A stretch of 48,484 nucleotides of DNA from Poseidonibacter ostreae (GCF_009208075.1 NZ_WFKJ01000021.1:1-48484); one strand, 5' to 3'; numbered from the stretch's first letter, positions 1,275 to 39,043 are shown. A program made the numbers and translations. Notes: generated from the letters alone by a model not told the origin.

Positions 1275-1307
1275 TGTCAGTATTCTGCCAGATATCTATC
1301 TTATAAT
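1275..1307 (+). promoter_or_regulatory. usp-tctDE promoter with tandem TGYCAG activator site
   Basis: The site reads TGTCAG-TATTC-TGCCAG (1275-1291): two TGYCAG half-sites in direct orientation with an 11-bp period, the arrangement OmpR-family regulators use. Ten bases later comes a perfect TATAAT -10 box (1302-1307). The second half-site sits where a -35 would be, and no good -35 is present, which fits an activator-dependent promoter. A near-identical copy with the same 10-nt spacing lies upstream of tctC at 8150-8166. The likely binder is the TctD-like regulator encoded in this operon; that is inference. Confidence 0.7.
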
Positions 1308-1334
1308 TTATAAAAATCTTTTAAAGGAATATAG

Positions 1335-2159
1335 ATGAATTATAAGAAGTTGTTTTTCCCAATTGGTGGTGGAGATGAATTAGAAGAGAGATTATATGGG
1401 GCATTATTAATTGCTAAAAAATTTGATGTTAAATTAGATGTACTAAAATGTGGACATAAATCTGATTCTAGTCTTTATAAAACATATGCTATTCCAAATG
1501 AAATAATAAAAGAAATTGATGAAATAGTTGAAAGTAAATATAAAGATGAAAATAAAGAATTTGAGAAACTTTTTAAAAAAGTTTCTCAAGAAATTAATAT
1601 AAATGATTCACTTGTTGATTTAAAAATAAAAGAGGGTGTTAGAAGTACTCTTGTTGAACAAGAATCAAAATTTTGTGATTTAGTTATAGCTGCTGCTCCT
1701 CCTTCTGGTATTACAACAGCAACATTTGAAACAGCAGTTCTTAAAAGTGGAAAATCTGTATTAATGTTTCCTCGAATTTTAAGAAAATTTTCTTTTGATT
1801 CAATTATTATAGGATGGAATAACTCTCCTGAAGTATCACGTGCTATTACATCATCTATAGAAATACTAAAACAGGCTCAAAAAGTGCATATTGTTTCTTC
1901 AATTGAATATACAAAAAACAATGAAACAATTGAAAATTTACTTTCTTATTTAAAACTACACCAAATTGAAGCAAGTTATGAGATTGTTAAAACAACAAGA
2001 ATTCCAGGTCAAGCATTATTGAATTCTGCATTAGATGGAAACTTTGATATGATAGTTGCAGGTGCTTATGGGCATAAAGGTTTAAAAGAACTTATGTTTG
2101 GTGGAGCTACAAGATATTTATTAGAAAACTCTAGCATACCAGTTTTTATGTCTCATTAA
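1335..2159 (+). CDS. Universal stress protein, tandem Usp domains (paralogue 1)
   Basis: This 274-aa cytoplasmic protein has two UspA-type halves: a degenerate N-terminal one (about 1-145) and a C-terminal one (about 150-274). The C-terminal half carries the nucleotide-binding signature GAYGHKGLKELMFGGAT, which matches G-x2-G-x9-G. The start ATG follows AAAGGAATATAG. It is the first gene of a likely operon with the response regulator (18 nt downstream) and sensor kinase. An equally long, clearly homologous copy lies at 37581-38405 beside the second tripartite transporter. Usp proteins bind ATP or other nucleotides and affect stress survival; the position suggests a role tied to carboxylate use. 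The family call is firm, the role unknown. Confidence 0.9.
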   Translation: MNYKKLFFPIGGGDELEERLYGALLIAKKFDVKLDVLKCGHKSDSSLYKTYAIPNEIIKEIDEIVESKYKDENKEFEKLFKKVSQEININDSLVDLKIKEGVRSTLVEQESKFCDLVIAAAPPSGITTATFETAVLKSGKSVLMFPRILRKFSFDSIIIGWNNSPEVSRAITSSIEILKQAQKVHIVSSIEYTKNNETIENLLSYLKLHQIEASYEIVKTTRIPGQALLNSALDGNFDMIVAGAYGHKGLKELMFGGATRYLLENSSIPVFMSH

Positions 2160-2177
2160 TTATGTTAGAATGATACT

Positions 2178-2840
2178 ATGAAAATATTATTAGTAGAAGA
2201 TAATGAAAAACTAGCAAATGCAGTTCTAAAAAAACTTGAAAACAATGGATATTGTGTAGACCTTTTTTTAAATGGAGAAGAAGGTCTGTACGCTATAGAA
2301 ACATCATTTTATGATTTACTTATTTTAGACTTAGGTTTGCCTGGTATTGATGGTATTGATATTATTAAGAAACTAAGAAATCTTCATAGGGTTATACCAA
2401 TACTTATAATTTCTGCTAGAGATGAACTTGATCAAAGAATATTTGGTTTAGACTGTGGGGCTGATGATTATTTATGTAAACCATTTGAACTAAATGAAGT
2501 AATTGCTAGAGTTCAAGCACTTCTTAGAAGAACAAAATATCAAGTACATAATAAGATAACTTATAATGACTTAGTTTACGATACTCAAAATAGAACACTT
2601 ATAAAAAGTAATGAATATGTTGAGTTAAGTAAAAGAGAATTAGCGATATTTGAAAATTTATTATTAAATGTAGATACTGTTTTAAGTAAAGAAAATATTG
2701 TTGAACATATTAGTACTTTTACAGATTCTATTGAACCATCATCAGTAGAAACTTATGTATCACGAATACGAAAAAAACTAGGAGATTCAATAAATCTTAA
2801 AACAGCAAGAGGTTTAGGTTATATTTTGAGTAGTAAATGA
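2178..2840 (+). CDS. tctD: OmpR-family response regulator, TctD-like
   Basis: This 220-aa regulator has an N-terminal receiver (1-115) with phospho-acceptor Asp51 in LILDLGLPGIDG and the conserved lysine in CKPFEL. A C-terminal winged-helix DNA-binding domain (about 125-220) ends in TYVSRIRKKLG and ARGLGYIL. It overlaps the sensor kinase gene by 4 bp (ATGA), so the two are translationally coupled. TctD/TctE pairs activate tricarboxylate transport genes in enterobacteria and pseudomonads, and a tctCBA operon lies 1 kb away. The tandem TGYCAG motifs before usp and tctC are its probable targets, which would include its own operon. The symbol rests on context and kinase type. Confidence 0.82.
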   Translation: MKILLVEDNEKLANAVLKKLENNGYCVDLFLNGEEGLYAIETSFYDLLILDLGLPGIDGIDIIKKLRNLHRVIPILIISARDELDQRIFGLDCGADDYLCKPFELNEVIARVQALLRRTKYQVHNKITYNDLVYDTQNRTLIKSNEYVELSKRELAIFENLLLNVDTVLSKENIVEHISTFTDSIEPSSVETYVSRIRKKLGDSINLKTARGLGYILSSK

Positions 2841-4201
2841 ATAATATACAATCAATTAAATCAAGACTTATAGTATCTTTAAGCTTACCTTTAACTATTG
2901 GGGCAATTTTACTAGTGTTGATTATTTATTTTGTAGTACAAGATAAAGTAAATAAACACTTTGATAATACATTAAATGCTACAGCAAAAAGTATGGAAGA
3001 TAGTATAAATATTAAAAATGGAAGATTAATTGTTGACCTTCCTTATTTTGCTATTGACCTATTAGCTTCCAATAATGATGGCTTAGTATTTTATTCTATT
3101 GTAAATAAAGATAAAAAAGTCCTTACTGGATATAAAAACTTACTAAGAGATGATTTATTAAAAAATAAAGATAAACTTTTTTATAATACAACATATGCAG
3201 GTGCAAGATTAAGAGCAGTATCTTTTAATACCTCACTTGCAAGTGCAGGAAAAACACATTTTGCAACAATTACAATAGCAGAAACACTAGAAGGAAGAGA
3301 AGAAACTATAAATGAAATTTTAACTATTCTTTTTATAGTTGTTTTTTCAGTGATTATTTTTACTTTACTAATATCTTTTTTTGCTGTTAAAAATGGTTTA
3401 CTTCCCTTATATAAATTAAAAGAGATAATTCAAAATAGAGATACTAAAGATTTAAAACCAATATATTTTGAGTCTCCAAAAGAGATTGAAGATGTTGTTA
3501 ATAGTATTAATATTTTATTAACAAGAAGTAGAGATACGATTAAATATATTGAACAATTTAACTCAGATGTTTCTCATCAATTAAGAACACCTTTAGCTGA
3601 ATTAAAAGTCCAATTAGAAGAGTATAAAGAAAACAATAATTGGGATTATGCTGAATTAAATAAAGTAGTTAATACAATGTCCCATATAACTGAACAACTA
3701 CTACTTTATGCAAAAACTAATCCAAATACAATAGATAAAACATATTTAAAAAGAATAAACCTTAATAATTTTTGTAAGGATTATGCTTTAAAAATTTCAT
3801 CAAAAGTATATTCAAAAGGGTTTGAATTTGCCTTTGAAAATATTGATGAAAATATATTCATAGAAGCTGATGAAATTATGTTAAAAAGTATGCTGAATAA
3901 TATTGTTAATAATGCTCTACATTATGCACTTGATGATTTAGGAAATCCAATAGGTACAATAACACTCTTTTTGAAAAAACATAATAATACTATTTGGTTA
4001 AATATAAAAGATGAAGGTAAAGGCATTGAAAAAAAAGATTTAAATACTATTTTTGATAGATTTTATAGAGTTGATTCTAAAAAAAGTGGAAATGGTTTAG
4101 GATTAAATATTGTAAAACAAATTGCATCTTTACACAATGCAAAAGTACAAGCTATAAACAATAATGGATTAGTTGTCTCTATTATTTTTCCACTAAATTA
4201 A
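2837..4201 (+). CDS. tctE: Sensor histidine kinase, TctE-like (2CSK_N type)
   Basis: This 454-aa inner-membrane kinase has a first membrane segment (about 15-35), a periplasmic sensor of about 130 residues resembling the 2CSK_N domain of TctE/QseC kinases, and a second segment (about 163-185). A HAMP-like linker follows. The dimerisation/phospho-acceptor helix has His247 in DVSHQLRTPLAEL. The ATPase domain carries an N box (NNIVNNALHYA) and the G boxes DEGKGIE and GNGLGLNIVK. It presumably senses a periplasmic carboxylate and phosphorylates the overlapping regulator at 2178-2840. It ends 9 nt from the stop of the convergent DUF5718 gene. The ligand is not predictable. Confidence 0.85.
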   Translation: MNNIQSIKSRLIVSLSLPLTIGAILLVLIIYFVVQDKVNKHFDNTLNATAKSMEDSINIKNGRLIVDLPYFAIDLLASNNDGLVFYSIVNKDKKVLTGYKNLLRDDLLKNKDKLFYNTTYAGARLRAVSFNTSLASAGKTHFATITIAETLEGREETINEILTILFIVVFSVIIFTLLISFFAVKNGLLPLYKLKEIIQNRDTKDLKPIYFESPKEIEDVVNSINILLTRSRDTIKYIEQFNSDVSHQLRTPLAELKVQLEEYKENNNWDYAELNKVVNTMSHITEQLLLYAKTNPNTIDKTYLKRINLNNFCKDYALKISSKVYSKGFEFAFENIDENIFIEADEIMLKSMLNNIVNNALHYALDDLGNPIGTITLFLKKHNNTIWLNIKDEGKGIEKKDLNTIFDRFYRVDSKKSGNGLGLNIVKQIASLHNAKVQAINNNGLVVSIIFPLN

Positions 4202-4210
4202 TATATAATC

Positions 4211-5044
4211 TTAAGATTTAATCACTTGATGAAGTTTTGAACATTCATCGAGTTTTATAGTTGAATCTATATTATTAATAATATCTTGATGACTGTATTT
4301 ACGGGCATTGTATACATATATAAAAAGTTCATCATCATTTTTTAAATAGTTCTTCTTTCCAAACTCACTATAAGCAGTTGCACCTGATGCTATTAGTATT
4401 CCTTTTGCTTCATTTGCTTTTTTCATAAATTGTGTAATCTCTTCAAGTGGACCACAATCCTCTTGAGTATTAAATTTATCTATAATCCAATTTTTTAATT
4501 GAGTAAAAAAGTATGAATAGGACTTAACAGCAGAAATAGTTCCATAATTATGAAGCTTTCCATCTCTTTTTATAAAAGAGGAAATATGATATTTACTTAA
4601 AATTCCATCTTCTGTAAAGTTATCAATTTCAATAATATCTTCTGATATACCTTTTGTTTTTATTCCCCAATTTTTCTTAGTACTTAATTTATCACCATTT
4701 TGTACCCTTAAAGAGCAGTCATTAAAAGCAGAAAAATATTTAGGAGTTATATCTATTAATTTTTCATTTTTATAAACAAAGTCACAAATCAATGCAAGCT
4801 CTGGTTCTGCTTGGATTTTATCATTTTCTCTTTGATGAGTATAAATAGTGTTAGTACAAATGGGATATGTTTTCAAAAAAGAGTCATGATCTTTTATATA
4901 AAAAGGGAATAATCCTTTTGGTTCGTTTTTATCTTTTGTTTTTATTACTGAAAACTCATCTGCTTCGCCAGCTTCTCCCAAATGCCCTGCAAAATTACCT
5001 GCTACAGCAAAACCTAAATAATCTTTTAATTTTTCTTTTAACAT
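4211..5044 (-). CDS. DUF5718 family protein, possibly FAH-fold enzyme
   Basis: This 277-aa soluble protein has no signal peptide. It resembles the DUF5718 proteins found in Campylobacterota. I also see a pattern like fumarylacetoacetase (FAH) superfamily enzymes: Glu80-Pro-Glu82 in AEPELAL, like the family's E-x-E metal pair, then Asn108-Asp109 in NDCSLR about 27 residues on, like the FAH N-D-x-S-x-R motif, then a lysine in KKNWG. That spacing matches bacterial FAH-family hydrolases and decarboxylases. It follows tctA on the same strand but lies beyond a hairpin terminator, so it may be transcribed separately. The FAH link is my inference; acting on the imported carboxylate is a guess from position. 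Confidence 0.65.
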   Translation of the reverse strand: MLKEKLKDYLGFAVAGNFAGHLGEAGEADEFSVIKTKDKNEPKGLFPFYIKDHDSFLKTYPICTNTIYTHQRENDKIQAEPELALICDFVYKNEKLIDITPKYFSAFNDCSLRVQNGDKLSTKKNWGIKTKGISEDIIEIDNFTEDGILSKYHISSFIKRDGKLHNYGTISAVKSYSYFFTQLKNWIIDKFNTQEDCGPLEEITQFMKKANEAKGILIASGATAYSEFGKKNYLKNDDELFIYVYNARKYSHQDIINNIDSTIKLDECSKLHQVIKS

Positions 5045-5073
5045 ATATATTATTCCTATTTGAAAGTTTTGTG

Positions 5074-5104
5074 AAAAAAAAAGAGACTTTTAGCCTCTTT
5101 TTTT
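5074..5104 (-). terminator. Rho-independent terminator after tctCBA
   Basis: A hairpin pairs seven A plus GAG (5076-5085) with CTC plus seven T (5095-5104) around a 9-nt loop. It lies 20 nt past the tctA stop and reads into a T run on the minus strand. It separates tctCBA from the DUF5718 gene, though some read-through is possible. Confidence 0.75.
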
Positions 5105-5123
5105 ATTTAGTTTGTAAGTTTAA

Positions 5124-6635
5124 TTATTTAGTAGAAAGTTTATTTTTAGTAAACTTTTCGATGATAGTAGAACCAAATAAAGATATAACTAATAAAGCTA
5201 AAATTACTAAGGTAATTGGTCTTTCAACTATATATGATATATCTCCGCCAGAAATTTGTAAAGACTGAACTAAATTACTTTCTCCCATACTACCAAGTAA
5301 CATGCCAATAACAGTTGCTGGAACTGAGAAGTTATATCTTCTAAATAACCATCCTATAAGAGCAAACACTAATACACTAATAGGACCTGCCATATTACCC
5401 GTTAATCCAAATGCTCCTGCAGTTGCAAGTACTAAAACAGAAGGAACAAGATAATTCATCTTTACTTTTATAATAGAAGCTAAAACAGGAATAAGTAATA
5501 ATCCTAAGATTATAAGTAAAAATACCTGTCCAAAGTTAGCAAAAATAATTGCATAAACTATGTCCATCTCTTCTCTAATAAACTGAGGACCACCTGTAAT
5601 GTTATGCATAGCAAAGGCTGCAAGCATAACTGCTGTTGCTCCACCACCTGGAATTCCAAGTGCTAATAATGTTGCCATTGAACCAGCTTCAGATGTACTA
5701 TTCGCAGCTTCTGAAGCAACTACACCTTTTGGATTTCCTTTTCCAAAGCTATCTGGGTCTTTATCTCTTCTTTTTGTTTCAATATATGAAAGTAAATTAG
5801 ATACAGAAGAACCAACTCCTGGAACAGCACCAATTAAAACACCAATAAAACTTCCTCTAATCAAAATTACTGGATACTTGAAAGCTTGTTTAAATCCTTT
5901 TAGAATATATGAAATTCTAACTTTTCTTTGACTTTCATCTTCAACTAAAAATTCAGAATTCACAAGTTTAAAAAGCTCAGATGCAGCAAACATTCCCATC
6001 ATTGCTGGAATTACAGGAACACCGTCAGCTAAAAGTTCAATATCCATTGTTCCTCTCATAACCCCAACTTCACTAAATCCTATTGTTCCAATTAAAAGTC
6101 CAAAAAGACCAGCAATTAAACCTTTAATCATATGCTTTCCAGTTAAACTTGCAATTAATGTAAGTCCCCAAAGAATTACCATAAACATTTCAGAAGGTCC
6201 AAGTTTTAACACAAATCCAGACATGGGTTTTATTAAAAAGAATAATAAAATATATCCAAGAAGTACTCCAAAAGTAGAAGAACCTAAAGCTAAACCTAAA
6301 GCTTCATTGTGTTTTCCGTTTCTTGCCATTGGATAACCATCAAAAGCTGTTGCAATAGCAGAAGAGGTTCCTGGTATATTCATTAAAATTGCAGGAACTC
6401 CTGCTCCAAAACCACCACCTGTAAATATTGCCGTTAAAAACAACATTGCCTGCAAAAAGTCCATATATAAAGTTATTGGCAAGAAAATTGCCATAGCCAT
6501 TGATGTTTGTAATCCTGGAGTTGCACCAAAAAATAGTCCAATCATAATACCAGGTATTACAACTAACCAATATTCAGGTTGCGAAAATAGTAAACTAAAG
6601 GCTTCTGAAGCAGAAGCTATATCAATTAAATCCAT
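5124..6635 (-). CDS. tctA: Tripartite tricarboxylate transporter, large permease TctA
   Basis: This 503-aa inner-membrane protein of the TctA family has about 11-12 hydrophobic segments. The two inverted-repeat signatures are ATPGLQTSMAMAIFLP near residue 40 and VPGVGSSVSNLLSYIETKRR near 270. The family motif around residue 100 (NIPGTSSAIATAFDGYPMA) is also present. Length is typical. It is the main transport subunit of a binding-protein-dependent, ion-gradient-driven carboxylate importer. The start ATG (6633-6635) lies 8 nt past tctB, and the order tctC-tctB-tctA is the family standard. It is clearly diverged from the second TctA at 33767-35275, so the two importers probably take different substrates. 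Confidence 0.95.
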   Translation of the reverse strand: MDLIDIASASEAFSLLFSQPEYWLVVIPGIMIGLFFGATPGLQTSMAMAIFLPITLYMDFLQAMLFLTAIFTGGGFGAGVPAILMNIPGTSSAIATAFDGYPMARNGKHNEALGLALGSSTFGVLLGYILLFFLIKPMSGFVLKLGPSEMFMVILWGLTLIASLTGKHMIKGLIAGLFGLLIGTIGFSEVGVMRGTMDIELLADGVPVIPAMMGMFAASELFKLVNSEFLVEDESQRKVRISYILKGFKQAFKYPVILIRGSFIGVLIGAVPGVGSSVSNLLSYIETKRRDKDPDSFGKGNPKGVVASEAANSTSEAGSMATLLALGIPGGGATAVMLAAFAMHNITGGPQFIREEMDIVYAIIFANFGQVFLLIILGLLLIPVLASIIKVKMNYLVPSVLVLATAGAFGLTGNMAGPISVLVFALIGWLFRRYNFSVPATVIGMLLGSMGESNLVQSLQISGGDISYIVERPITLVILALLVISLFGSTIIEKFTKNKLSTK

Positions 6636-6643
6636 AATCCCTC

Positions 6644-7090
6644 CTAATAATCTGTTGGTAATATCATCATAGGCATAGGATATGGAAGCATCTGTGAAAA
6701 GAAATATGCAATTATAAAACCATAAACTAAACTATAACCTAATATCCATGGTAATCTTTTTTCACCATGAAAAAATAAAAACAATCCTAAAAATAAAACT
6801 GTTCCTACGTCAAATCCTAATAACTCTAATGTTAATACATATAATGTAAATAGAATCATTACAGGTATCACTGAAGAGATACTATCCTTAGTCTCTTCTT
6901 TGCTTATATCTTTTTGAGTAAAAAACTCATAAATACATAAACAAAGTACTATTGCTGCAATAGGAAGAATTAAAATTATATTTTCAAGACTACTTGAAGC
7001 ATTATGTGTATCTATTGCATACCATAATACAAAAGTAGCTAAGCATAGTATGACTATGCTATTAGCTATTTTTTCTGTTGATAAAGCCAT
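6644..7090 (-). CDS. tctB: Tripartite tricarboxylate transporter, small permease TctB
   Basis: This 148-aa membrane protein has four predicted membrane helices: about 10-28, 35-52, 72-100 (a broad hydrophobic stretch containing LLGFDVGTVLFLGLFLFFHGEKR) and 112-135. That is the TctB layout. It lies between tctC (9-nt gap) and tctA (8-nt gap) and is expected to complex with TctA. TctB proteins are poorly conserved in sequence, so the call leans on topology and position. A ribosome site AAGGATAAGCC precedes the ATG. Confidence 0.88.
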   Translation of the reverse strand: MALSTEKIANSIVILCLATFVLWYAIDTHNASSSLENIILILPIAAIVLCLCIYEFFTQKDISKEETKDSISSVIPVMILFTLYVLTLELLGFDVGTVLFLGLFLFFHGEKRLPWILGYSLVYGFIIAYFFSQMLPYPMPMMILPTDY

Positions 7091-7099
7091 GGCTTATCC

Positions 7100-8104
7100 T
7101 TATTTTTTAAGTAAGTAAGAGTATGACTTAAAGATTTCAAATGATTCTTGAATAAGTTTATTAGATTGCTCAGGACCACTCCAAGTATAACCTATATCAT
7201 TCTTTTTAAGAAATTTTTGTACACCTTTATTCGCTAATGTTCTTTTAATTCCATCAACTAATTTTGTATATCTCTCTGGATATTTTTCTTTAAATGTAAC
7301 TGGAACTGCAAAACCTCTCATAGATCCACTAAATACTGGTAGTTTAATTCCAGATGAAGAAATAGCTTCATTTAAAGTTGGAGCATCCCATTGTTTCATT
7401 TTTTCATCTTTTACAATTGCAATTGGCTTAATGAACTCTCTTATACTTTCACTTCCTTGTGCTGAAATAGCAATTAAATCAACTTGACCACCTGCAACTG
7501 CAGTTCTTGCTTTTCCACCACTACTATATGTCACTAAATTAAGATTTTCTTGAGGAATGTCAAATTTTTCTAATAAAAGTTTTAACATTAAATGTCCACC
7601 GGAACCTTGAACAACGGCCGCTTTAACAGTCTTTGGTTTATTTTTAATTGCTTCAATAACTTCTAACATATTGTTATATTTTGAATTTTTATTTAAAGCA
7701 AATAGTTCAAAATCAAACCATTGTATATTTAAAAAATCAAAATCAGTCATTTGATATTTTGCATTACCTGAAAGGATAGTATTTGCTAAGTATGGAGCAA
7801 AAGTTGATGCAAATACAGTATAACCATCAGCAGGTTTTCTTAATACATAATTAGCAGCGATTTGTGTACCTGCACCTTTTTTATTAACAACTTTTACTCT
7901 TGTATCTAATTCATCAGATAAAAATGTTGTCATAGAACGTGTCATTCTATCTGCACTTCCTCCAATACCAAATCCTACAACCATGTTAACTGGTTTTTTA
8001 GTTGGATAATCGTCTGCTAATAGATTTGTTCCACCTACTAAGCCTAATCCTAATACTGTAGTAACAGCTATTTTCATTGTCGATTTAACAATATTTGTAT
8101 ACAT
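7100..8104 (-). CDS. tctC: Tripartite tricarboxylate transporter, periplasmic binding protein TctC (Bug family)
   Basis: This 334-aa secreted solute-binding protein has a signal peptide over about residues 1-31, ending near LLADD. The Bug-family start follows: a beta strand with VNMVVGFGIGGSADRMTR, the usual glycine-rich loop that binds the substrate carboxylate, and the VVNKKGAGTQIAANYV region. The first ATG is chosen because AGGAG lies about 6 nt upstream; an internal ATG at codon 10 lacks one. It heads the tctCBA operon behind the activator-type promoter at 8134-8166. Bug proteins bind citrate, other carboxylates or amino acids; the ligand is unknown here. Confidence 0.93.
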   Translation of the reverse strand: MYTNIVKSTMKIAVTTVLGLGLVGGTNLLADDYPTKKPVNMVVGFGIGGSADRMTRSMTTFLSDELDTRVKVVNKKGAGTQIAANYVLRKPADGYTVFASTFAPYLANTILSGNAKYQMTDFDFLNIQWFDFELFALNKNSKYNNMLEVIEAIKNKPKTVKAAVVQGSGGHLMLKLLLEKFDIPQENLNLVTYSSGGKARTAVAGGQVDLIAISAQGSESIREFIKPIAIVKDEKMKQWDAPTLNEAISSSGIKLPVFSGSMRGFAVPVTFKEKYPERYTKLVDGIKRTLANKGVQKFLKKNDIGYTWSGPEQSNKLIQESFEIFKSYSYLLKK

Positions 8105-8133
8105 AATCTCTCCTATATTTAAGTTATGATGAA

Positions 8134-8166
8134 ACTTTAACAGATGAATCTGGCAGAATGCTGACA
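8134..8166 (-). promoter_or_regulatory. tctC promoter with tandem TGYCAG activator site
   Basis: Read on the minus strand, 8166 to 8150 is TGTCAG-CATTC-TGCCAG. It differs from the usp site (1275-1291) at one base, and the next two bases (AT) also match. Exactly ten bases further is a -10-like TAAAGT (8139-8134), the same spacing as at usp. The identical geometry argues that one activator, probably the TctD-like regulator, drives both promoters. The divergent aldo/keto reductase has its own TATAAT at 8231-8236. Confidence 0.7.
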
Positions 8167-31274: not shown

Positions 31275-31982
31275 TTATTTAAATGTTTTTTCAATATCTT
31301 TCCATCCAGTATTAAGGTGTTCTCTTAATGCTTTTTCTGCTTCATCAGGATCTCTATTTAATATAGCTTCAAATATTTTTTTATGAGCGTAATAATTTAG
31401 TTCATTTCTTTTTGATAGTCTTCCCATTTTTTTCCAATGGTTTGATAACCAGTTTACAAAGGCTTTTTGTACTGAGGGAAAGATTGGATTATTAGGAATA
31501 GAATATAATATAGAGTGAAACAACACATCTGTAGTATAAAACTCATCAGAATCATTAATAGCTAGATAGTTTGCTTTTAAAGCTTCTCGTAATGCTTTAA
31601 TATCATCTTTATTTGCATTTATAGCAGCTTCTCTTACAAGCATAGCTTCAATCATTAATCTTGTATCAAATAAATTTTTTACACCATCAGATTGACTTAA
31701 TAGATGAGTTACTATTCCATTAATAGAATCTAATGCTGAATCAATATTTGGTTTTCTAGCAATTGGTCTAAATCTTGGCTTTGTTATAATCAAACCCTTA
31801 CTTGACAAAGTAGCAATTGCTTCTCTAACAACTGTTCTACTTACATCATATTGATTCATTAATTCTCTTTCAGAAGGTAATTTTTCTCCATCTTTTATAT
31901 TGTTAGATAATATTTTTGCTTCTAGTTGAGTTACTAAATAATCAGAAATCCTTCCTTTTTGGGCTGACTCAGTTTTATTCAT
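31275..31982 (-). CDS. GntR/FadR (FCD)-family transcriptional regulator
   Basis: This 235-aa regulator has an N-terminal winged helix (about 12-80, with GEKLPSERELMNQYDVSRTVVREAIATLSSKGLI). A C-terminal FCD ligand domain (about 95-235) has the metal-binding-type residues in FYTTDVLFHSILYS and YAHKKIFEAIL. FCD regulators of this type respond to organic and sugar acids. It is divergent from the second tripartite transporter operon. Palindromes matching the family operator (TTGGT-N3-ACCAA) lie in the shared 315-bp spacer, so it probably controls itself and that operon. The start follows AAAGGAGCTAATAATT. Confidence 0.9.
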   Translation of the reverse strand: MNKTESAQKGRISDYLVTQLEAKILSNNIKDGEKLPSERELMNQYDVSRTVVREAIATLSSKGLIITKPRFRPIARKPNIDSALDSINGIVTHLLSQSDGVKNLFDTRLMIEAMLVREAAINANKDDIKALREALKANYLAINDSDEFYTTDVLFHSILYSIPNNPIFPSVQKAFVNWLSNHWKKMGRLSKRNELNYYAHKKIFEAILNRDPDEAEKALREHLNTGWKDIEKTFK

Positions 31983-32297
31983 AATTATTAGCTCCTTTAT
32001 ATTTTATAAATTATACCATAATTATACAAAAAGTAATTTTGGTAGAACTAAACTATAAAAACAATTGAATAATTTGTAAAATAAAATCAAAACTTTTTAT
32101 TATATATCTATATTTTATGTTTATTTAGAATAAAATGTATAAAAATTAAGCAATATTTAAAAAAAGTACTATAAGATGAAAATCTAATTTGGTCATACCA
32201 AAAAAGAGCTACGTAATTTTGATTGATACAAAAGAACAATTGAGTTCTCAATGGTTCAAATGTACGATTTAAATAAAATTTAACTAAGGAAGAGAAA
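31983..32297. promoter_or_regulatory. Divergent control region of gntR and the second TTT operon
   Basis: This 315-bp spacer has no gene. TTTGGTCATACCAAA (32188-32202) is a perfect inverted repeat of the GntR/FadR operator type (TGGT-N3-ACCA). TTGGTAGAACTAA (32039-32051) is a weaker copy next to gntR, whose -10 is a minus-strand TATAAT at 32015-32010. Another inverted repeat, TTGAGTTCTCAA (32240-32251), overlaps a possible -35 (TTGAGT) that is 17 bp from a TACGAT -10 (32263-32268) for tctC. The GntR binding role is inferred from family operator rules. The rest is AT-rich with no further pattern seen. Confidence 0.65.
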
Positions 32298-33251
32298 ATG
32301 AAAAAAGTAAAAAGTTTGTTGTTAGCTGTAAGTTTATCTGTAACATCTGCATTTGCAGCGTTCCCTGAAAAAGATATAACATTAATTGTGCCATGGTCAG
32401 CTGGTGGTGGTACAGATACTATTGCTCGTGCTTTAGTTAAAAATGCTAAAAAGCATATTGGTGTAAATGTAAACGTTATTAATAAAACTGGTGGTCAAGG
32501 TGTAGTTGGTATGAGTGCTGCTAAACGTGCAAGACCAGATGGTTATTCTGTAGGTATGATAACTTTTGGTCTTAGTACTTATAAATTAATGGGTTTATCA
32601 GGTCTTAATTATAAGGATTTTAAATTACTTCAATTATTAAATCAAAGTACACCTGCTTTAAGTGTAAAAGATGGCTCGAAATTAACTTCTATTGCAGAAG
32701 TAATTAAAGAAGCTAAAGCAAATCCTGGAAAAGTAACAATTGGACATACAGGTGCTGGTGTTGCTTGGCATTTATCTGCTGCTGCTTTAGGTTTAAAACA
32801 AGGTGTAGAGTTTAACTTTATTCCTTTTGATGGTGGAGCTCCTACGCGTGCTGCATTATTAGGTGGACATATTGATTTAGCTGCTACTGGAATTGATGAA
32901 ATGAAACAATTAAAAGAAGCTGGTCAAGTTAAAATTATTGCAACAGATGCAAGTACAAGACATCCATTATTCCCTAATGTTCCTACATTAGAAGAAGAGG
33001 GGTATTCAAAAAGTGCACCAATTTTAGATTGGCGTGGATTAGCATTACCAAAAAATGTACCTGCTGATCGTGCAGAAGTTTTAGCTGCTGGATTCAAAAA
33101 AATGTTTGATGATCCTGAGTTTGTTGAGTTTACAAAAAAAGTTGGTCTTAACTTAGTATACGAAGATGCAAAAGGGTTTGATAAGTTTTTAGGTGATATG
33201 GAAAATATTCTTAAACCGACATTAGATGCTGTTGGTCTACTTAAGAAGTAA
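32298..33251 (+). CDS. tctC: Second TTT periplasmic binding protein (TctC/Bug family)
   Basis: This 317-aa secreted binding protein has a signal peptide over about residues 1-20 (ending TSAFAAF). The Bug-type PWSAGGGTDTIARALV loop follows. Further family blocks are NKTGGQGVVGMSAAKRARPDGYSVG and FNFIPFDGGAPTRAALLGGHIDLAATG. The start follows AAGGAAGAGAAA. It is first in an operon with tctB and tctA and enzymes of sugar-acid metabolism. It differs clearly from the first TctC, so a different ligand is likely, possibly a sugar acid. Confidence 0.93.
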   Translation: MKKVKSLLLAVSLSVTSAFAAFPEKDITLIVPWSAGGGTDTIARALVKNAKKHIGVNVNVINKTGGQGVVGMSAAKRARPDGYSVGMITFGLSTYKLMGLSGLNYKDFKLLQLLNQSTPALSVKDGSKLTSIAEVIKEAKANPGKVTIGHTGAGVAWHLSAAALGLKQGVEFNFIPFDGGAPTRAALLGGHIDLAATGIDEMKQLKEAGQVKIIATDASTRHPLFPNVPTLEEEGYSKSAPILDWRGLALPKNVPADRAEVLAAGFKKMFDDPEFVEFTKKVGLNLVYEDAKGFDKFLGDMENILKPTLDAVGLLKK

Positions 33252-33259
33252 TAAAAAAA

Positions 33260-33715
33260 ATGTATAGTAAACCGATTGATATTGGTGTTGGTATATTCTT
33301 AAGTTTATTAAGTATTGCCATCTATACGTATGCAGAACAATATGTAGGAATTGGAGTTAACCGTTATGGTCCTAACTTCTTTCCTCAAGCATTATCTGCA
33401 TTGTTATTTATAGCCTCAATTGCTCTTATTGTTCAAGCACTAAAGGGAAATGCCTTAAAAAATTTAGAGTCAATAAATAAAAAAGGTTTTATTCGTACTT
33501 CAGTTACTTTAGTAATTGCAGTTTCATATTTATACCTTATGCAGGTTATAGGATTTTATATTTCAACAGTGATGTTTTTATTTGTAACTATGAGATATTT
33601 AGGTCAAAGAAATAATTTAGTGACTTTTTTTATTAGTCTTGCAATTGCTTCCGTTGTGTACGGTATTTTTAGTATGTTTCTAAAAATTCCTTTACCAGAG
33701 GGGATGTTATATTGA
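33260..33715 (+). CDS. tctB: Second TTT small permease TctB
   Basis: This 151-aa membrane protein has four helices (about 8-25, 38-55, 75-95, 100-140) and the TctB-type GIGVNRYGPNFFPQALSALLFI near the start. It lies 8 nt after tctC and 51 nt before tctA. TctB is a small partner of TctA with no known separate activity. Confidence 0.88.
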   Translation: MYSKPIDIGVGIFLSLLSIAIYTYAEQYVGIGVNRYGPNFFPQALSALLFIASIALIVQALKGNALKNLESINKKGFIRTSVTLVIAVSYLYLMQVIGFYISTVMFLFVTMRYLGQRNNLVTFFISLAIASVVYGIFSMFLKIPLPEGMLY

Positions 33716-33766
33716 AAAGGTTTATAAATTATTTAAAAAAGATATCTTATTTTGTAGGAGGTTATA

Positions 33767-35275
33767 GTGAGCTTTGATTATTTAATGAATGCATTTATAC
33801 TAATTTTTTCTAACCCTTCTAGTTTATTATTTATTATAGTTGGAGTAACAGCTGGAATTATAGTTGGATGTCTACCAGGATTAACTGCAACTATGGGTTG
33901 TGCTTTACTAATTCCTTTTACATATAGTTTACCTCCTGTTGAGGGTTTACTATTATTAATGGGAATATTTAGTGGAGGTATTTATGGTGGTTCTATTTCT
34001 GGTATTTTAATTAGAACACCAGGAACACCAGCAGCAGCAACATTACTTGATGGATATCCACTTTCTCAAAGAGGAGAAGGTGGTAAAGCTATAGGTATTT
34101 CTACTATTGCTTCATTTATTGGTGGAACTATTGGGGCTTTAATAATGGCATTTTTAGCACCTGAAATTGCATCATTTGGTCTACGTTTTGGTCCACCTGA
34201 GTTTTTTGCATTAGCTGTTTTTGGACTTACTATGATTATATCAATTTCTGGAGAATCATTACTTAGAGGTGCAATTGTAGTTTTAATTGGATTACTTCTT
34301 ACAACTATTGGTTTTGATCCACTATCAGGAGTTCCTCGTTTTTCTTTTGAAAATGAAGATTTATTAGGTGGTATTACATTTATTCCTGTATTAATTGGTC
34401 TATTTGGTTTTGCACAAGTATTTAGAAATGTAGAGAATATGGAAATTGTTCCTCAAGTAAAATCAAAAGTTGGCAAAATTTTACCAAAAATAAGTGAAAT
34501 TAAACCACTTCTTTTTACAATGTTTAAATCAGGTAGTTTAGGTTCTTTTCTAGGGAGTGTTCCTGGACTTGGTAGTGATGTTGCTGCTTTTGTAGCATAT
34601 GGTGAAGCTAAAAGAACATCTAAAGAACCAGAAAAATTTGGTAAAGGTTCACATGAGGGAATTGCAGCTCCTGAGTCTGCAAATAATGGTGCTACTGGTG
34701 GTGCAATGATTCCTATGTTAACTTTAGGAGTACCAGGTGATGCAGTTACTGCTGTTTTATTGGGTGCTTTAACAATCCATGGGCTTCAACCTGGACCTTT
34801 ATTATTTAGAGATCATATTGATATTGTGTATCCAATTTTTGCAGGTATGATTTTATGTCAAGTTGTATTACTAATTATTGGTTTAGGTGGAGCAAGAATA
34901 TTTTCAAAATTAATTAATATTAATCAAAATATATTAACTCCTGTAATATTTTTATTATGTATTACTGGTGCTTATGCAATAAGATTTAGTTTTTTTGATG
35001 TTGGATTAGCTTTTATAGTAGGTGTGATTGCTTATTTTATGGATAAGGCAAAATTTCCAATTTCTCCAATATTATTAGCTCTTATTTTAGGCCCAATGGC
35101 TGAACAAAATATGCGTCGTTCTTTATTATTATCTCGAGATGATTTTATGATTTTTATTGAGAGACCAATTAGTGCAGTATTTTTAGGATTAGCTCTTATT
35201 ATGCTTGTATCTAGTTATAGAAAATTTAAAAAATTACGTAGTATAGAAAAAGAAATTGAAGAAAAGACTTCTTAG
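33767..35275 (+). CDS. tctA: Second TTT large permease TctA
   Basis: This 502-aa permease has the canonical TctA signatures: GCLPGLTATMGCALLIPFTY near residue 35, RTPGTPAAATLLDGYPLSQRGEGGKA near 80-110, and the second-half repeat VPGLGSDVAAFVAYGEAKRTSK. It has about eleven helices. It starts at GTG with a very strong TAGGAGG ribosome site, so the 51-nt gap after tctB is probably no barrier to translation. It is the transport core of the second importer and is closer to the family standard than the first TctA (5124-6635). Confidence 0.95.
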   Translation: MSFDYLMNAFILIFSNPSSLLFIIVGVTAGIIVGCLPGLTATMGCALLIPFTYSLPPVEGLLLLMGIFSGGIYGGSISGILIRTPGTPAAATLLDGYPLSQRGEGGKAIGISTIASFIGGTIGALIMAFLAPEIASFGLRFGPPEFFALAVFGLTMIISISGESLLRGAIVVLIGLLLTTIGFDPLSGVPRFSFENEDLLGGITFIPVLIGLFGFAQVFRNVENMEIVPQVKSKVGKILPKISEIKPLLFTMFKSGSLGSFLGSVPGLGSDVAAFVAYGEAKRTSKEPEKFGKGSHEGIAAPESANNGATGGAMIPMLTLGVPGDAVTAVLLGALTIHGLQPGPLLFRDHIDIVYPIFAGMILCQVVLLIIGLGGARIFSKLININQNILTPVIFLLCITGAYAIRFSFFDVGLAFIVGVIAYFMDKAKFPISPILLALILGPMAEQNMRRSLLLSRDDFMIFIERPISAVFLGLALIMLVSSYRKFKKLRSIEKEIEEKTS

Positions 35276-35329
35276 TATTTAAGAAGATTATAAAAATATA
35301 AATAAATATAAATAAAAAAGGATAAAAAT

Positions 35330-36238
35330 ATGTCAAATACAAAACTTCCAAAAATTGGTTTCATTGGTTTAGGATTAATGGGATCAGCAATAGTAAATAG
35401 ATTACAAGATTTAAATTATACATTAACAGTTTTAGGTAGAAAAAGAAACGATGGAATTAATAAAGCAGAATCAAGAGGTGCAACAGTTGCAACAAATGCT
35501 AGTGAAGTAGCACAAGCATCAGATATTATATTTATTTGTGTTGATACATCTAAATCAGTTGAATCAATTATGTTAAATGAAAATGGTTTATTAGAAGGAT
35601 TAAAAGCTGGTTCACTAGTTATTGATTTAGGTACATCTCTTCCTGAATCAACTAAAATGCTTGGAGATAAAATCAAAGAAAAAGGTGCAAGTTATATGGA
35701 TGCTCCTTTAGGGAGAACTCCAAAACATGCACTTGATGGCTTACTAAATATTATGAGTGCTGGTGAAAAATCAGATTTTGATAGAGTTAAACCTGTTTTA
35801 GAAGATATTGGTGAAAACGTTTTTCATGTTGGAGCATTAGGTGCAGGACATACTTTAAAACTTATCAATAACTTCTTTGGAATGACATTAGCAACTGCTA
35901 TGTCAGAATCATTTGCAATGGCTGATTTAGCTGGTATAAAAAGAGAAGATCTATATGGAATTATGTCTGCTGGTCCACTACACTCAATGATGATGGATTT
36001 TGTAAAGGCAAATGCCGTAGATGGAAACTCTAAATCTTTAGGTTTTTCTATTGGAAATGCACATAAAGATTTATCTTATTATGTAAGTATGACTGAGGCT
36101 TTAAATGTAACTAGTGGTATTGCTACTGGTACAAAAGCAACACTTGGAAGTGCTGTAGATCAAGGAAAAGGTGACCTTGATGTTCCTGATATGGTATCTC
36201 ATCTTGCAGGTGAATTTGCAAAGACTGTAAAAAAATGA
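35330..36238 (+). CDS. NAD(P)-dependent beta-hydroxyacid dehydrogenase (GarR/LtnD-like)
   Basis: This 302-aa enzyme is of the 3-hydroxyisobutyrate/tartronate-semialdehyde reductase family. The nucleotide fold is IGFIGLGLMGSAIVNRL. The catalytic lysine lies in GAGHTLKLINNFF. The substrate loop is unusual: DAPLGRTPKHA replaces the usual DAPVSGG. Family members oxidise or reduce short hydroxy-acids such as tartronate semialdehyde or L-threonate. It overlaps the next gene by 4 bp and belongs to the TTT-sugar-acid operon. The changed loop fits a non-standard substrate, which cannot be named here. Confidence 0.85.
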   Translation: MSNTKLPKIGFIGLGLMGSAIVNRLQDLNYTLTVLGRKRNDGINKAESRGATVATNASEVAQASDIIFICVDTSKSVESIMLNENGLLEGLKAGSLVIDLGTSLPESTKMLGDKIKEKGASYMDAPLGRTPKHALDGLLNIMSAGEKSDFDRVKPVLEDIGENVFHVGALGAGHTLKLINNFFGMTLATAMSESFAMADLAGIKREDLYGIMSAGPLHSMMMDFVKANAVDGNSKSLGFSIGNAHKDLSYYVSMTEALNVTSGIATGTKATLGSAVDQGKGDLDVPDMVSHLAGEFAKTVKK

Positions 36239-36666
36239 AACATCTAGATGTTGCAAAACAAGCTGTTGAATTAGTAAAACCATCTATTAATGAGTTATTT
36301 AATAAAACTAATAGAAAAGAGCTTCACATAGTTATTATGGACCCAAGGTTAAAACCTTGGGAAGCTAAGTTTGATGAAGCAATTTTATATGAAGAATCTA
36401 TTAAAAACTCTACTTGGGAAAAACCTTTTGATGATTTTGCAAGAAGTAAAGCCGAACAAGCTTGGCGTGAGAATCAAGCAAATATTGTTACACAAACACA
36501 ACACCCATCCTCTTTAAGAGAAGGGGATTTACCATTTTACGGATCTTTTGTATATGGGAATATTGTAGTTGCTTGTAGTGGAGTTGAACAATGGTTTGAT
36601 ATGTTAGTTAGTTCTTGGATTGCATTAGCTTTTGAACAACTTATGATACATGAACATCAACAATAA
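36235..36666 (+). CDS. Uncharacterised 143-aa protein of the sugar-acid operon
   Basis: I do not recognise the family firmly. The cytosolic protein has no signal or membrane segment. Its order (helix, LHIVIMDPRLKPWEAKFDEAI, ARSKAEQAWREN, GDLPFYGSFVYGNIVVACSGVEQWFDMLVSSWIALAFEQL) loosely recalls GlcG/HbpS-like proteins, which have a helix, a beta sheet and a final A-x-SG block. Such proteins sit next to carboxylate-use genes, so the match is plausible but weak. It overlaps the dehydrogenase by 4 bp and precedes KDG kinase by 9 nt, so it is part of the operon and not a spurious frame. Confidence 0.6.
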   Translation: MKHLDVAKQAVELVKPSINELFNKTNRKELHIVIMDPRLKPWEAKFDEAILYEESIKNSTWEKPFDDFARSKAEQAWRENQANIVTQTQHPSSLREGDLPFYGSFVYGNIVVACSGVEQWFDMLVSSWIALAFEQLMIHEHQQ

Positions 36667-36675
36667 AGGCAAATA

Positions 36676-37563
36676 ATGGCAAAAATAGCAGTTGTTGGCG
36701 AATGTATGGCAGAACTATATATGCAAGGTGATGGATATAAACAGACTTTTGCAGGAGATACTTTTAATTGTGCTGTTTATTTAAAAAGAAGTTCACCTAA
36801 AGATAGTGTTGAATATATAAGTGTTTTAGGTAAAGACTCATGGTCTAAAAAAATGACCTCTTGTTTTAAAGAACATAATTTAGATACTAATTATTTAGAT
36901 TTTAAAGATGATAAAACTATAGGACTTTATATAATTACTACAGATAATGGTGAGAGAAGTTTTTCTTATTGGAGAGGTGAATCTGCAGCAAAAGAACTTT
37001 TTACAACTCCTGTTTTAGAAAAAATTAAAGAGGATATATCTTCTTTTGATATGATTTATTTCTCTGCAATCTCTTTAGCTATTATGAATGAAAAAGGAAG
37101 AAATAGTTTTTTTGAAACTATTCAAAAAGCCAGAGAAACTGGAGTAAAAATAGTTTTTGATACTAATTATAGACCAAAACTATATACGAATACTCAAAAA
37201 GCAAAAGATATATATAATGAAGTTATTAATTACTGTGATATTGTTCTTCCCTCTATTGAAGATGAAGAAGATTTATGGGGTGTGAGCGATTCAAATAAAA
37301 TTATTGAAAAACTTAAAACAGCTGGCGTAAAAGAGATAATACTTAAAGCTGGAAAAGAAGATATTATGTATTATTATCAAAATGAGATAAAGATAGTAAA
37401 AATAAAAGCCTTGGAAAATATTGTAGATTCTACATCAGCAGGTGATTCTTTTAATGGTGCTTATTTATCAGCAAGATTAAATGGTGATAATATTGAAGAT
37501 TCTATTCTTAAAGGTCAAGAATTAGCATCAAAAGTGATTATGCATAAAGGTGCAATTGTATAA
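36676..37563 (+). CDS. kdgK: 2-keto-3-deoxygluconate kinase (PfkB family)
   Basis: This 295-aa ribokinase-type sugar kinase opens with AVVGECMAELYMQGDGYKQTFAGDTFNCAVYL, typical of KDG kinases. The C-terminal PfkB signature is DSTSAGDSFNGAYLSARLNG with the catalytic base in SAGDS. It should phosphorylate KDG to KDPG, the substrate of the aldolase encoded two genes downstream. Length is slightly short for the family but both termini are present. The start follows AAGGCAAATA. Specificity for KDG over a related 3-deoxy sugar acid is inferred from sequence and context. Confidence 0.85.
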   Translation: MAKIAVVGECMAELYMQGDGYKQTFAGDTFNCAVYLKRSSPKDSVEYISVLGKDSWSKKMTSCFKEHNLDTNYLDFKDDKTIGLYIITTDNGERSFSYWRGESAAKELFTTPVLEKIKEDISSFDMIYFSAISLAIMNEKGRNSFFETIQKARETGVKIVFDTNYRPKLYTNTQKAKDIYNEVINYCDIVLPSIEDEEDLWGVSDSNKIIEKLKTAGVKEIILKAGKEDIMYYYQNEIKIVKIKALENIVDSTSAGDSFNGAYLSARLNGDNIEDSILKGQELASKVIMHKGAIV

Positions 37564-37580
37564 TAATAAAGGATTTATAA

Positions 37581-38405
37581 ATGTCTTATAAAAAACTTTT
37601 TTTTCCAATTGGTGGAGGAGAAGAACTTGAAGAAAGAATATATGGTGCATTATTAATTGCAAAAAAATTTAATATTAAGTTAGATGTTTTACAGTCTATT
37701 CTAAAAGAGAGTAATAGCTTTTATAGAAGTTTTGCAATTCCTGATAATATTAAAAATGATATTGATAAAATAGTTGATATAAAATATAAAGAAGAAAATG
37801 AAGCCTTTGTTAAACTTTTTGAAAGAGTTTCCAAAGAAGTAGAAGTTGATATTTCAAAAGTAAGTTTAAAAATAAAAGAGGGATTAAGAAGTAATTTAGT
37901 AGAACAAGAATCAAAGTTTTGTGATTTAGTAATAGCAGCAGCTCCTCCCTCAGGACTTACTACTGCAACATTTGAAACAGCAGTACTAAAAAGTGGAAAA
38001 CCTGTTTTAATGTTTCCTAGAGTATTAAGAAAATTCTCTACTGATTCTATAATAATTGGTTGGAATAATTCAACTGAAGCTTCACGATCTCTTACTTCAT
38101 CTATACAGTTATTAAAACAAGCAAAAAAAGTACATATTATTTCATCTATAGAATATGTAAAAGATTTAGGAGTTATGGAAAATCTTATTTCTTATTTAAA
38201 AGAGCATAATATAAATGCTAGTTATGAGATAATTAAAACTACAAGAATACCTGGCCAAGCCTTATTAAATGCAGCACAAGAAGGTAATTTTGATTTGATA
38301 GTTGCAGGAGCTTATGGACATAAAGGCTTAAAAGAACTAATGTTTGGTGGAGCTACTAGATATTTATTGGAAAACACTACTATTCCTGTTTTTATGTCAC
38401 ACTAA
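37581..38405 (+). CDS. Universal stress protein, tandem Usp domains (paralogue 2)
   Basis: This 274-aa protein has the same length as the copy at 1335-2159 and is very similar through most of its sequence (for example VEQESKFCDLVIAAAPPSG and the identical C-terminal GAYGHKGLKELMFGGATRYLLEN). Differences cluster in the N-terminal third (residues about 38-90). The nucleotide-binding glycines are intact. It lies inside the TTT-KDG kinase-aldolase operon, 17 nt after kdgK. A stress protein coded within each tripartite transporter locus suggests these Usp proteins act with that carbon use. Confidence 0.9.
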   Translation: MSYKKLFFPIGGGEELEERIYGALLIAKKFNIKLDVLQSILKESNSFYRSFAIPDNIKNDIDKIVDIKYKEENEAFVKLFERVSKEVEVDISKVSLKIKEGLRSNLVEQESKFCDLVIAAAPPSGLTTATFETAVLKSGKPVLMFPRVLRKFSTDSIIIGWNNSTEASRSLTSSIQLLKQAKKVHIISSIEYVKDLGVMENLISYLKEHNINASYEIIKTTRIPGQALLNAAQEGNFDLIVAGAYGHKGLKELMFGGATRYLLENTTIPVFMSH

Positions 38406-38437
38406 ATAAATTAACAACAAAAGTAATAAGGATAATA

Positions 38438-39043
38438 ATGATTAATGAATTTAAAAATTCACCAGTAATTCCCGTATTAACATTTAATGATGTAAATGAA
38501 AGTTTAAAAATATCAGAAATATTAATACAAGAGGGTTTAACAAATTTAGAAATTACACTAAGAACACCAAATGCAATGTCATGTATAGAAGCAATTGTTA
38601 AAGAGTTTCCAATGGCAAATGTTGGAGCTGGAACAATTATAAAAAAAGAACAATTATTACAAGTGCAAAACATTGGATGTACTTTTGCAGTAAGTCCAGG
38701 AGCTACATCTTCTTTAATTCAAGAAGCAAAAAGAATAGATATGAACTATTTACCAGGAGCTTCAACTCCAAGTGAAATTATAAGCTTAATAGAAGATGGG
38801 ATTTTCTTTCAAAAGTTTTTTCATGCAGGAAATTCAGGAGGCTATAAAATGCTTCAAGCTTATGCTAATATTTTTGAAGAAGTACAGTTTTGCCCAACTG
38901 GTGGAATTGGTCAAAAAGACTTTCAAGATTATTTAAATCTGAAAAATGTAGTATGCTTAGGAGGTTCATGGATGGTTAATACAAAAACTATGTCTTTAAA
39001 TGATATACAAATTGAAGCTAAAAGTATTACTTCTGTAATTTAA
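38438..39043 (+). CDS. eda: KDPG aldolase (Eda)
   Basis: This 201-aa class I aldolase splits 2-keto-3-deoxy-6-phosphogluconate to pyruvate and glyceraldehyde-3-phosphate. The Schiff-base lysine is Lys126 (E. coli Lys133), with Glu38 and Arg42 in LEITLRT (E. coli Glu45, Arg49). GAGTI and PG-x-STPSE are present. The usual FFPAE after the lysine is FFHAG here, a change near the phosphate and sugar site. It is the last gene of the cluster; with KdgK it makes the lower Entner-Doudoroff branch. The next gene starts 68 bp on and has its own leader. Confidence 0.92.
   Translation: MINEFKNSPVIPVLTFNDVNESLKISEILIQEGLTNLEITLRTPNAMSCIEAIVKEFPMANVGAGTIIKKEQLLQVQNIGCTFAVSPGATSSLIQEAKRIDMNYLPGASTPSEIISLIEDGIFFQKFFHAGNSGGYKMLQAYANIFEEVQFCPTGGIGQKDFQDYLNLKNVVCLGGSWMVNTKTMSLNDIQIEAKSITSVI

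Follow-up and report, generated by a model that had tools for sequence, protein, structure and literature searches.

Organization of the locus

The 48,484-nucleotide stretch of Poseidonibacter ostreae DNA analysed here (NZ_WFKJ01000021.1:1-48484, hereafter the window) carries an operon for a universal stress protein (USP)-like protein, a TctD-like response regulator and a TctE-like sensor kinase, together with a tctCBA operon for a tripartite tricarboxylate transporter (TTT) on the opposite strand. A 17-bp direct repeat stands at the promoter of each operon, and the present analysis concerns the probable role of these two repeats as operators of the regulator encoded between them. The genes of the locus are as follows.

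1335-2159, plus strand: usp, 274-aa universal-stress-protein-like product, first gene of the regulator operon (Pfam PF00582)
2178-2840, plus strand: TctD-like response regulator of the OmpR/PhoB family (PF00072 and PF00486)
2837-4201, plus strand: TctE-like sensor histidine kinase with a 2CSK_N domain (PF08521, E=4.7e-30)
4211-5044, minus strand: DUF5718 gene between the sensor gene and tctA, present in the same place in the related genome G093 and not in G055
5124-6635, minus strand: tctA, large membrane subunit of the TTT (PF01970)
6644-7090, minus strand: tctB, small membrane subunit (PF07331)
7100-8104, minus strand: tctC, periplasmic solute-binding protein, first gene of tctCBA (PF03401)

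The regulator scores almost equally against the NCBIfam models of PmrA (183.8 bits), TctD (181.6) and QseB (179.0), in every case below the cut-off (337 bits for the curated TctD equivalog, NF012023), and it is therefore described as TctD-like rather than as TctD sensu stricto. Against the PhoB model it reaches 144.6 bits, the cut-off being 296.2, and no PhoB equivalog was detected in the genome (no match at E<=1e-60). The sensor, which is the sole 2CSK_N kinase of the genome, lies close to tctCBA, as is typical of TctD/TctE-type systems.

Direct repeats at the two promoters

A sequence-only reading of the window had described the motif TGTCAG-N5-TGCCAG ahead of both operons, with one mismatch and exactly 10 nt before a -10 box in each case. 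All of these details are confirmed.

1275-1291, plus strand: TGTCAG-TATTC-TGCCAG (TGTCAGTATTCTGCCAG), predicted regulator operator at the usp-tctD-tctE promoter, a direct repeat with an 11-bp period
1302-1307, plus strand: -10 box TATAAT of usp-tctD-tctE, identified from sequence, starting 10 nt past the operator
8134-8139, minus strand: -10 box TAAAGT of tctCBA, identified from sequence, 10 nt past the operator and conserved in the A1 loci defined below
8150-8166, minus strand: TGTCAG-CATTC-TGCCAG (TGTCAGCATTCTGCCAG), predicted regulator operator at the tctCBA promoter, from sequence and conservation

The two 17-mers share 16 of 17 bases, the N5 spacer included. A recognisable -35 hexamer is absent from both promoters (1/6 match at 17-bp spacing); upstream of TATAAT, for example, the hexamer at this distance is AGTATT, which agrees with TTGACA at a single position. 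Assuming that transcription starts 7 nt past the -10 box, the operators cover about -39 to -23. A direct repeat of 11-bp period that overlaps the -35 region is a layout in common with the Pho box and does not signify membership of a Pho regulon. OmpR/PhoB-family regulators bind as tandem dimers on direct repeats (PMC4832192), and the sites of PhoB overlap the -35 element, with the dimer touching sigma and alpha (model, PMC3348028).

As CTGNCAG is self-complementary, the window sites also resemble an inverted repeat. This reading was rejected: the orthologous sites (TGCAAG...TGACAG) keep the direct repeat and not the palindrome, and the direct repeat is thus the conserved architecture. The divergent aldo-keto reductase gene at 8268 was set aside as a co-target, as no match to this gene was seen at the other two A1 loci.

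The operator stands where the -35 hexamer is missing, and activation is thus the likely sign of regulation at the window promoters. It is improbable, in our estimation, that the regulator binds but represses, or autoregulates weakly while tctCBA is mainly under another factor. A protein bound over the -35 region could indeed exclude polymerase, and the sign cannot be read from sequence, but the lack of a -35 element at both promoters is what would be expected of activator-dependent promoters, and activation of tct genes is what has been described to date for regulators of the TctD/BctD type (PMC5812351, PMC4513871).

Distribution of the motif in the genome and the family

In the window alone, with two mismatches allowed, the three matches found do not exceed chance (shuffled mean 2.0), and the case therefore rests on larger scans. 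With at most one mismatch, TGTCAG-N5-TGCCAG occurs twice in the 2,958,551-bp assembly, both times at this locus, and the reversed control pattern not at all. The earlier statement that the window holds no third copy is thus correct, and it extends to the whole assembly; the genome scan that had been suggested shows a motif that is not common genome-wide and whose two copies sit at the promoters of linked genes.

The scans were extended to 104 genomes of the Arcobacteraceae. The exact pattern is present in 14 of them, and two genomes, G055 and G093, each hold exactly two copies, divergent and ~6-7 kb apart, as in the window; the reversed control gave three matches over the whole set, or ~0.03 per genome. 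A degenerate 33-bp pattern (TGNNAGN5TGNCAGN10TANNNT), with matches counted by hand from the table, returned 62 matches in genomes that have the module, of which 60 lie no more than 20 kb from a regulator gene, and 13 in the 86 genomes without it, with a single reversed-control match over all 104. Under this pattern the window genome (G000) has exactly its two sites. The genes downstream of 71 sites comprise usp-regulator operons, tctC-type genes, TctAB-type permeases, porin-like proteins, an RraA-like protein, a chemoreceptor and other binding proteins. In base counts over the sites, the positions fixed in the search pattern are circular, and only the free positions 3, 4, 7-11, 14 and 15 count as evidence.

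That a 12-base pattern should stand at both promoters by coincidence, as the window-only count near the shuffled mean might suggest, has a negligible probability. Coincidence is refuted by the family-wide scans, by the controls with their ~0.03 matches per genome, and by the orthologous usp and tctC promoters that bear a site, at which position and exact 10-nt spacing are conserved.

Alternatively, the sites might be bound by a different member of the OmpR family, for instance PhoB, the neighbouring TctD-like gene being incidental. TGTCAG resembles the Pho-box half TGTCAT, the Pho box CTGTCAT(A/T)4CTGTCAT has the identical period (PMC4832192) and also overlaps the -35 region (PMC3348028), and PhoB and TctD have promoters in common in Pseudomonas aeruginosa (PMC4513871). 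However, the Pho-box reading was rejected for lack of a PhoB equivalog in the genome. Furthermore, the only two sites genome-wide both lie at this locus, and across genomes the sites vary with the linked regulator, both with its presence and with its recognition helix. Binding by a different OmpR-family protein is therefore very improbable.

Conservation at orthologous promoters

Within the family, the sensor is found in 18/104 genomes and tctC in 16/104, mostly at one shared locus, and usp lies upstream of the regulator gene in 19 of the 21 regulator loci. The conserved usp-regulator-sensor operon has as its neighbour either a closely similar tctCBA (subtype A, with TctA at 85-95% identity) or a different TTT operon (subtype B, with TctA at ~31%). 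Nearly every other Arcobacteraceae locus has a 17-bp repeat of the same geometry in the same place, reading TGCAAG-N5-TGACAG or a near variant, and these orthologous sites lie exactly 10 nt ahead of the -10 box at usp as well as tctC promoters. The two regulator loci without usp (G070 and G088:C6) show no site immediately ahead of the regulator gene, though each has one nearby.

The motif of the window is thus a lineage variant of a conserved operator, since orthologous promoters carry TGCAAG-N5-TGACAG in its place. As a general motif, the TGYCAG-N5-TGCCAG proposed earlier is wrong in its letters, which belong to three loci of one clade, and by the proposal's own standard of conservation at orthologous promoters those letters would fail; the site, its spacing and its position are what is kept. 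The broader proposal, that the usp-regulator-sensor operon and tctCBA share an OmpR/PhoB-family operator with the TctD-like gene lying between the copies, is supported by comparative genomics. As judged by sequence and conservation, the predicted operator is present at both the regulator's own promoter and the tct promoter, which, with the regulator gene between the sites, argues for autoregulation. It is highly probable, in our assessment, that the TctD-like regulator has the 17-bp repeats as its operators and that the locus forms an autoregulated TctD/TctE circuit. No description of this operator in Campylobacterota, including Arcobacter, was found in the literature searched.

Concerted change of operators and recognition helix

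The three loci with the variant motif, those of the window genome, G055 and G093, are referred to as A1. They form a clade with support of 100/100 both in the regulator tree and in the sensor-plus-USP tree, and they alone among the Arcobacteraceae loci compared have switched site type, each at both promoters. All six A1 sites read TGTCAG...TGCCAG with identical half-sites; positions 3-4 are TC in 6/6 of them and in 0/65 of the remaining sites, and the second spacer base is A in the former (6/6) and T in the latter (65/65). At each promoter, 12/12 half-site bases are identical across the three genomes, amid flanks so diverged that merely 12/60 (usp) and 7/60 (tctC) bases are identical in the 60 bp upstream. 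Therefore, both operators have changed and have since been retained.

The regulator has changed as well. The 18 non-A1 orthologues have 89 invariant positions, and seven of these are altered in A1 (T179S, D182T, F185I, N186E/H, T188S, A189S and L197I), all of them in the region given here.

2712-2768, plus strand: recognition-helix region, regulator codons 179-197, with all seven lineage-specific changes at otherwise invariant positions
2742-2744, plus strand: regulator codon 189, equivalent to PhoB Thr194 by alignment

Such changes affect 7/16 invariant positions within 176-203 and 0/73 outside (Fisher p=1.7e-6), an interval that was drawn around the helix with the alignment already in view. 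Positions were mapped by alignment to PmrA structures and published contacts (PMC3973317, PMC3264566). The PhoB residue equivalent to 189, Thr194, contacts thymine bases (PMC3973317, PMC3264566), and we infer a residue-base contact from the same position in A1. Position 188 aligns with PmrA Asn188, and the equivalents of PhoB Arg201 and Arg219 (regulator 196 and 211) are conserved. A1-only states were also observed at regulator codons 11, 16 and 17 (window 2208-2228), in receiver helix 1. This helix is the usual place of kinase-pairing residues, and it is possible that kinase pairing co-diverged in A1.

A parallel case was found in another family of the same order, in which related systems have the same geometry and different half-sites. 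The sister regulators G261_1 and G418_2 (support 98/92) differ at position 189, which is Thr in the former and Ala in the latter, and the corresponding tctC sites are TGTCAGTTTCGTGCTAG in G261 (Thr189) and TGCAAGGTTCGTGCTAG in G418 (Ala189). G261_1 lies far from A1 in the tree, and TGTC has therefore been paired a second time, independently, with a residue at 189 that bears a hydroxyl group. In further order-level relatives with three TctDE-like paralogues (L097-L104, L118-L120), the half-site combinations differ from circuit to circuit (TGCAAG/TGCAAG, TGACAG/TGCAAG, TGACAG/TGACAG and TGAGAG/TGCAAG), and some of the sites lie upstream of predicted anion-symporter-type permeases.

The A1 differences in operator and helix might instead reflect neutral drift in a tolerant regulator, with no change of specificity, which would be compatible with the autoregulated circuit. 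The stem branch of the A1 regulators is indeed long, at 0.45 changes per column, with changes elsewhere too, and only three related loci are involved. However, invariant positions outside the helix region are untouched, the half-sites of all six A1 operators agree at the two promoters although their flanks have diverged, and Ala189Thr arose in parallel with the same first-half-site change in G261. Drift is thus unlikely, if still an explanation of some weight.

Paralogous circuits and probable movement of the module

In G055 and in G093 an A1 circuit is accompanied by a B circuit, and in G055 the two loci are neighbours. In these genomes the A1 promoters have only TGTCAG-type sites and the B-circuit promoters only TGCAAG-type sites, a segregation that suggests insulation of the paralogues as the reason for the switch. 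Nothing relevant to paralog insulation of this type was found in the literature searched. The predicted regulon of the G055 B circuit (L067 9094-16260) includes genes named by eye as porin-like, RraA-like, PrpF-like isomerase and TauE-like permease, which suggests an unusual tricarboxylate such as an aconitate isomer. In G091, the B-type tctC beside the sensor gene (L087 / G091:C17:19648-20565) is reported with one in-frame TAA.

By an rpoB fragment, G000 is closer to G093 (92.1% identity) than to G055 (84.5%), and yet its A1 genes are closer to those of G055 (sensor 88.3% identical, vs 79.7% to G093). This reversed order indicates that the A1 module probably moved between genera together with its operators. 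Taken at its fullest, the reading would be of a horizontally mobile TctDE/TctCBA module that was naturally rewired, both operators and the recognition helix changing in concert by a small code (189 Ala to Ser/Thr with first half-site TGCA to TGTC). The change would have set the module apart from a TctDE paralogue within one cell and would have arisen at least twice. We advance this reading tentatively, with doubt slightly the stronger.

Several points weigh against these interpretations, besides the choice of interval mentioned above. The case is built from sequence, and a site at about -39 to -23 is compatible with repression too. A1 is one lineage, and the concerted switch is hence one event, backed by the single parallel case of G261; the regulator promoters of G261_1 and G418_2 showed no comparable site. 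The second-half change from TGACAG to TGCCAG is seen at some sites of the B circuit as well, which leaves the first half-site and spacer position 2 as the only discriminating features. Finally, no B circuit was seen in the window genome, where insulation would be a relic.

Proposed mechanism and relation to known systems

In the proposed mechanism, the 2CSK_N sensor would detect a (tri)carboxylate, possibly via substrate-loaded TctC, and phosphorylate the regulator. Two regulator molecules would then bind head-to-tail on the 11-bp direct repeat, standing in for a -35 element, and from their place 10 nt upstream of the -10 box would recruit RNA polymerase as PhoB and PmrA do. Both tctCBA and the regulator's own usp-tctD-tctE operon would thereby be switched on. 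In A1, TGCAAG-N5-TGACAG would have become TGTCAG-N5-TGCCAG at both operators along with the recognition helix (Ala189Ser and neighbours), a change that probably separated the A1 circuit from the paralogous usp-TctD/TctE circuit with the ancestral operator, with which it coexists in G055 and G093. A PhoB/PmrA-like promoter layout in a circuit diverged from a paralogous one is the best reading of the locus.

Of the known systems, P. aeruginosa TctD/TctE (PMC4513871, PMC6403454) similarly has an OmpR-family regulator of its own gene and the adjacent TTT importer, a small regulon and a TctE-type sensor. There, TctD regulates tctD itself and opdH-tctCBA (PMC4513871), but its regulon is partly common with that of PhoB; its motif is published as a logo only. 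Bordetella pertussis BctDE-bctCBA and Salmonella TctD (PMC5812351) resemble the window system in having a two-component regulator encoded next to, and activating, an operon of the tctCBA type, and substrate-bound BctC contributes to signalling in Bordetella (review PMC5812351). A difference is that bctDE forms an operon of its own whose basal expression is independent of citrate, with no reported positive autoregulation. PhoB with the Pho box and PmrA with the PmrA box share the head-to-tail dimer on direct repeats of 11-bp period, and PhoB also shares sites overlapping -35 and a base contact from the helix position equivalent to 189 (Thr194). Both differ in half-sites, sensor and targets, and the window regulator falls far below both equivalog cut-offs.

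The USP subfamily and a second transporter cluster

The USP subfamily of the window usp numbers 46 copies in Arcobacteraceae, 24 of which lie within 10 kb of a TctA gene (hand count); further copies stand beside unrelated genes or other transporter types. A second TTT cluster in the window (31275-39043) comprises a GntR-type regulator, tctC, tctB, tctA, a tartronate-semialdehyde-reductase-like dehydrogenase, a PfkB-type kinase, a USP and a KDPG-aldolase-like protein, named by eye save for the USP comparison and TctA. It looks like a cluster for sugar-acid uptake and breakdown. Its USP, a paralogue 75% identical to the first, is under the GntR-type regulator, and the genome scan (at most one mismatch) found no operator there. 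Since copies of the subfamily recur near TTT transporter genes, the window USP is more likely a transport-linked than a general stress protein, and "stress protein", as the sequence-only reading called it, is probably a misnomer. In Halomonas, the TRAP transporter TeaABC is regulated by the USP TeaD, which likewise exemplifies genetic linkage between a protein of the USP type and a secondary transporter that depends on a binding protein. The differences are that TeaABC is a TRAP and not a TTT system, and that the window USP is encoded in the two-component operon and not in that of the transporter. We know of no usp gene in the TctD/TctE operon of P. aeruginosa.

While control of tctCBA by TctD-type regulators was already known, the concerted change of operator and helix is added here. 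The analysis yields a defined 17-bp predicted operator and a predicted regulon of ~70 sites at some 20 loci, and it ties a USP subfamily to transporter loci instead of general stress. In the marine Arcobacteraceae, the A1 and B circuits would constitute a compact natural experiment on the gain of distinct DNA specificities by paralogous response regulators, with one protein position and two bases as the candidate determinants.

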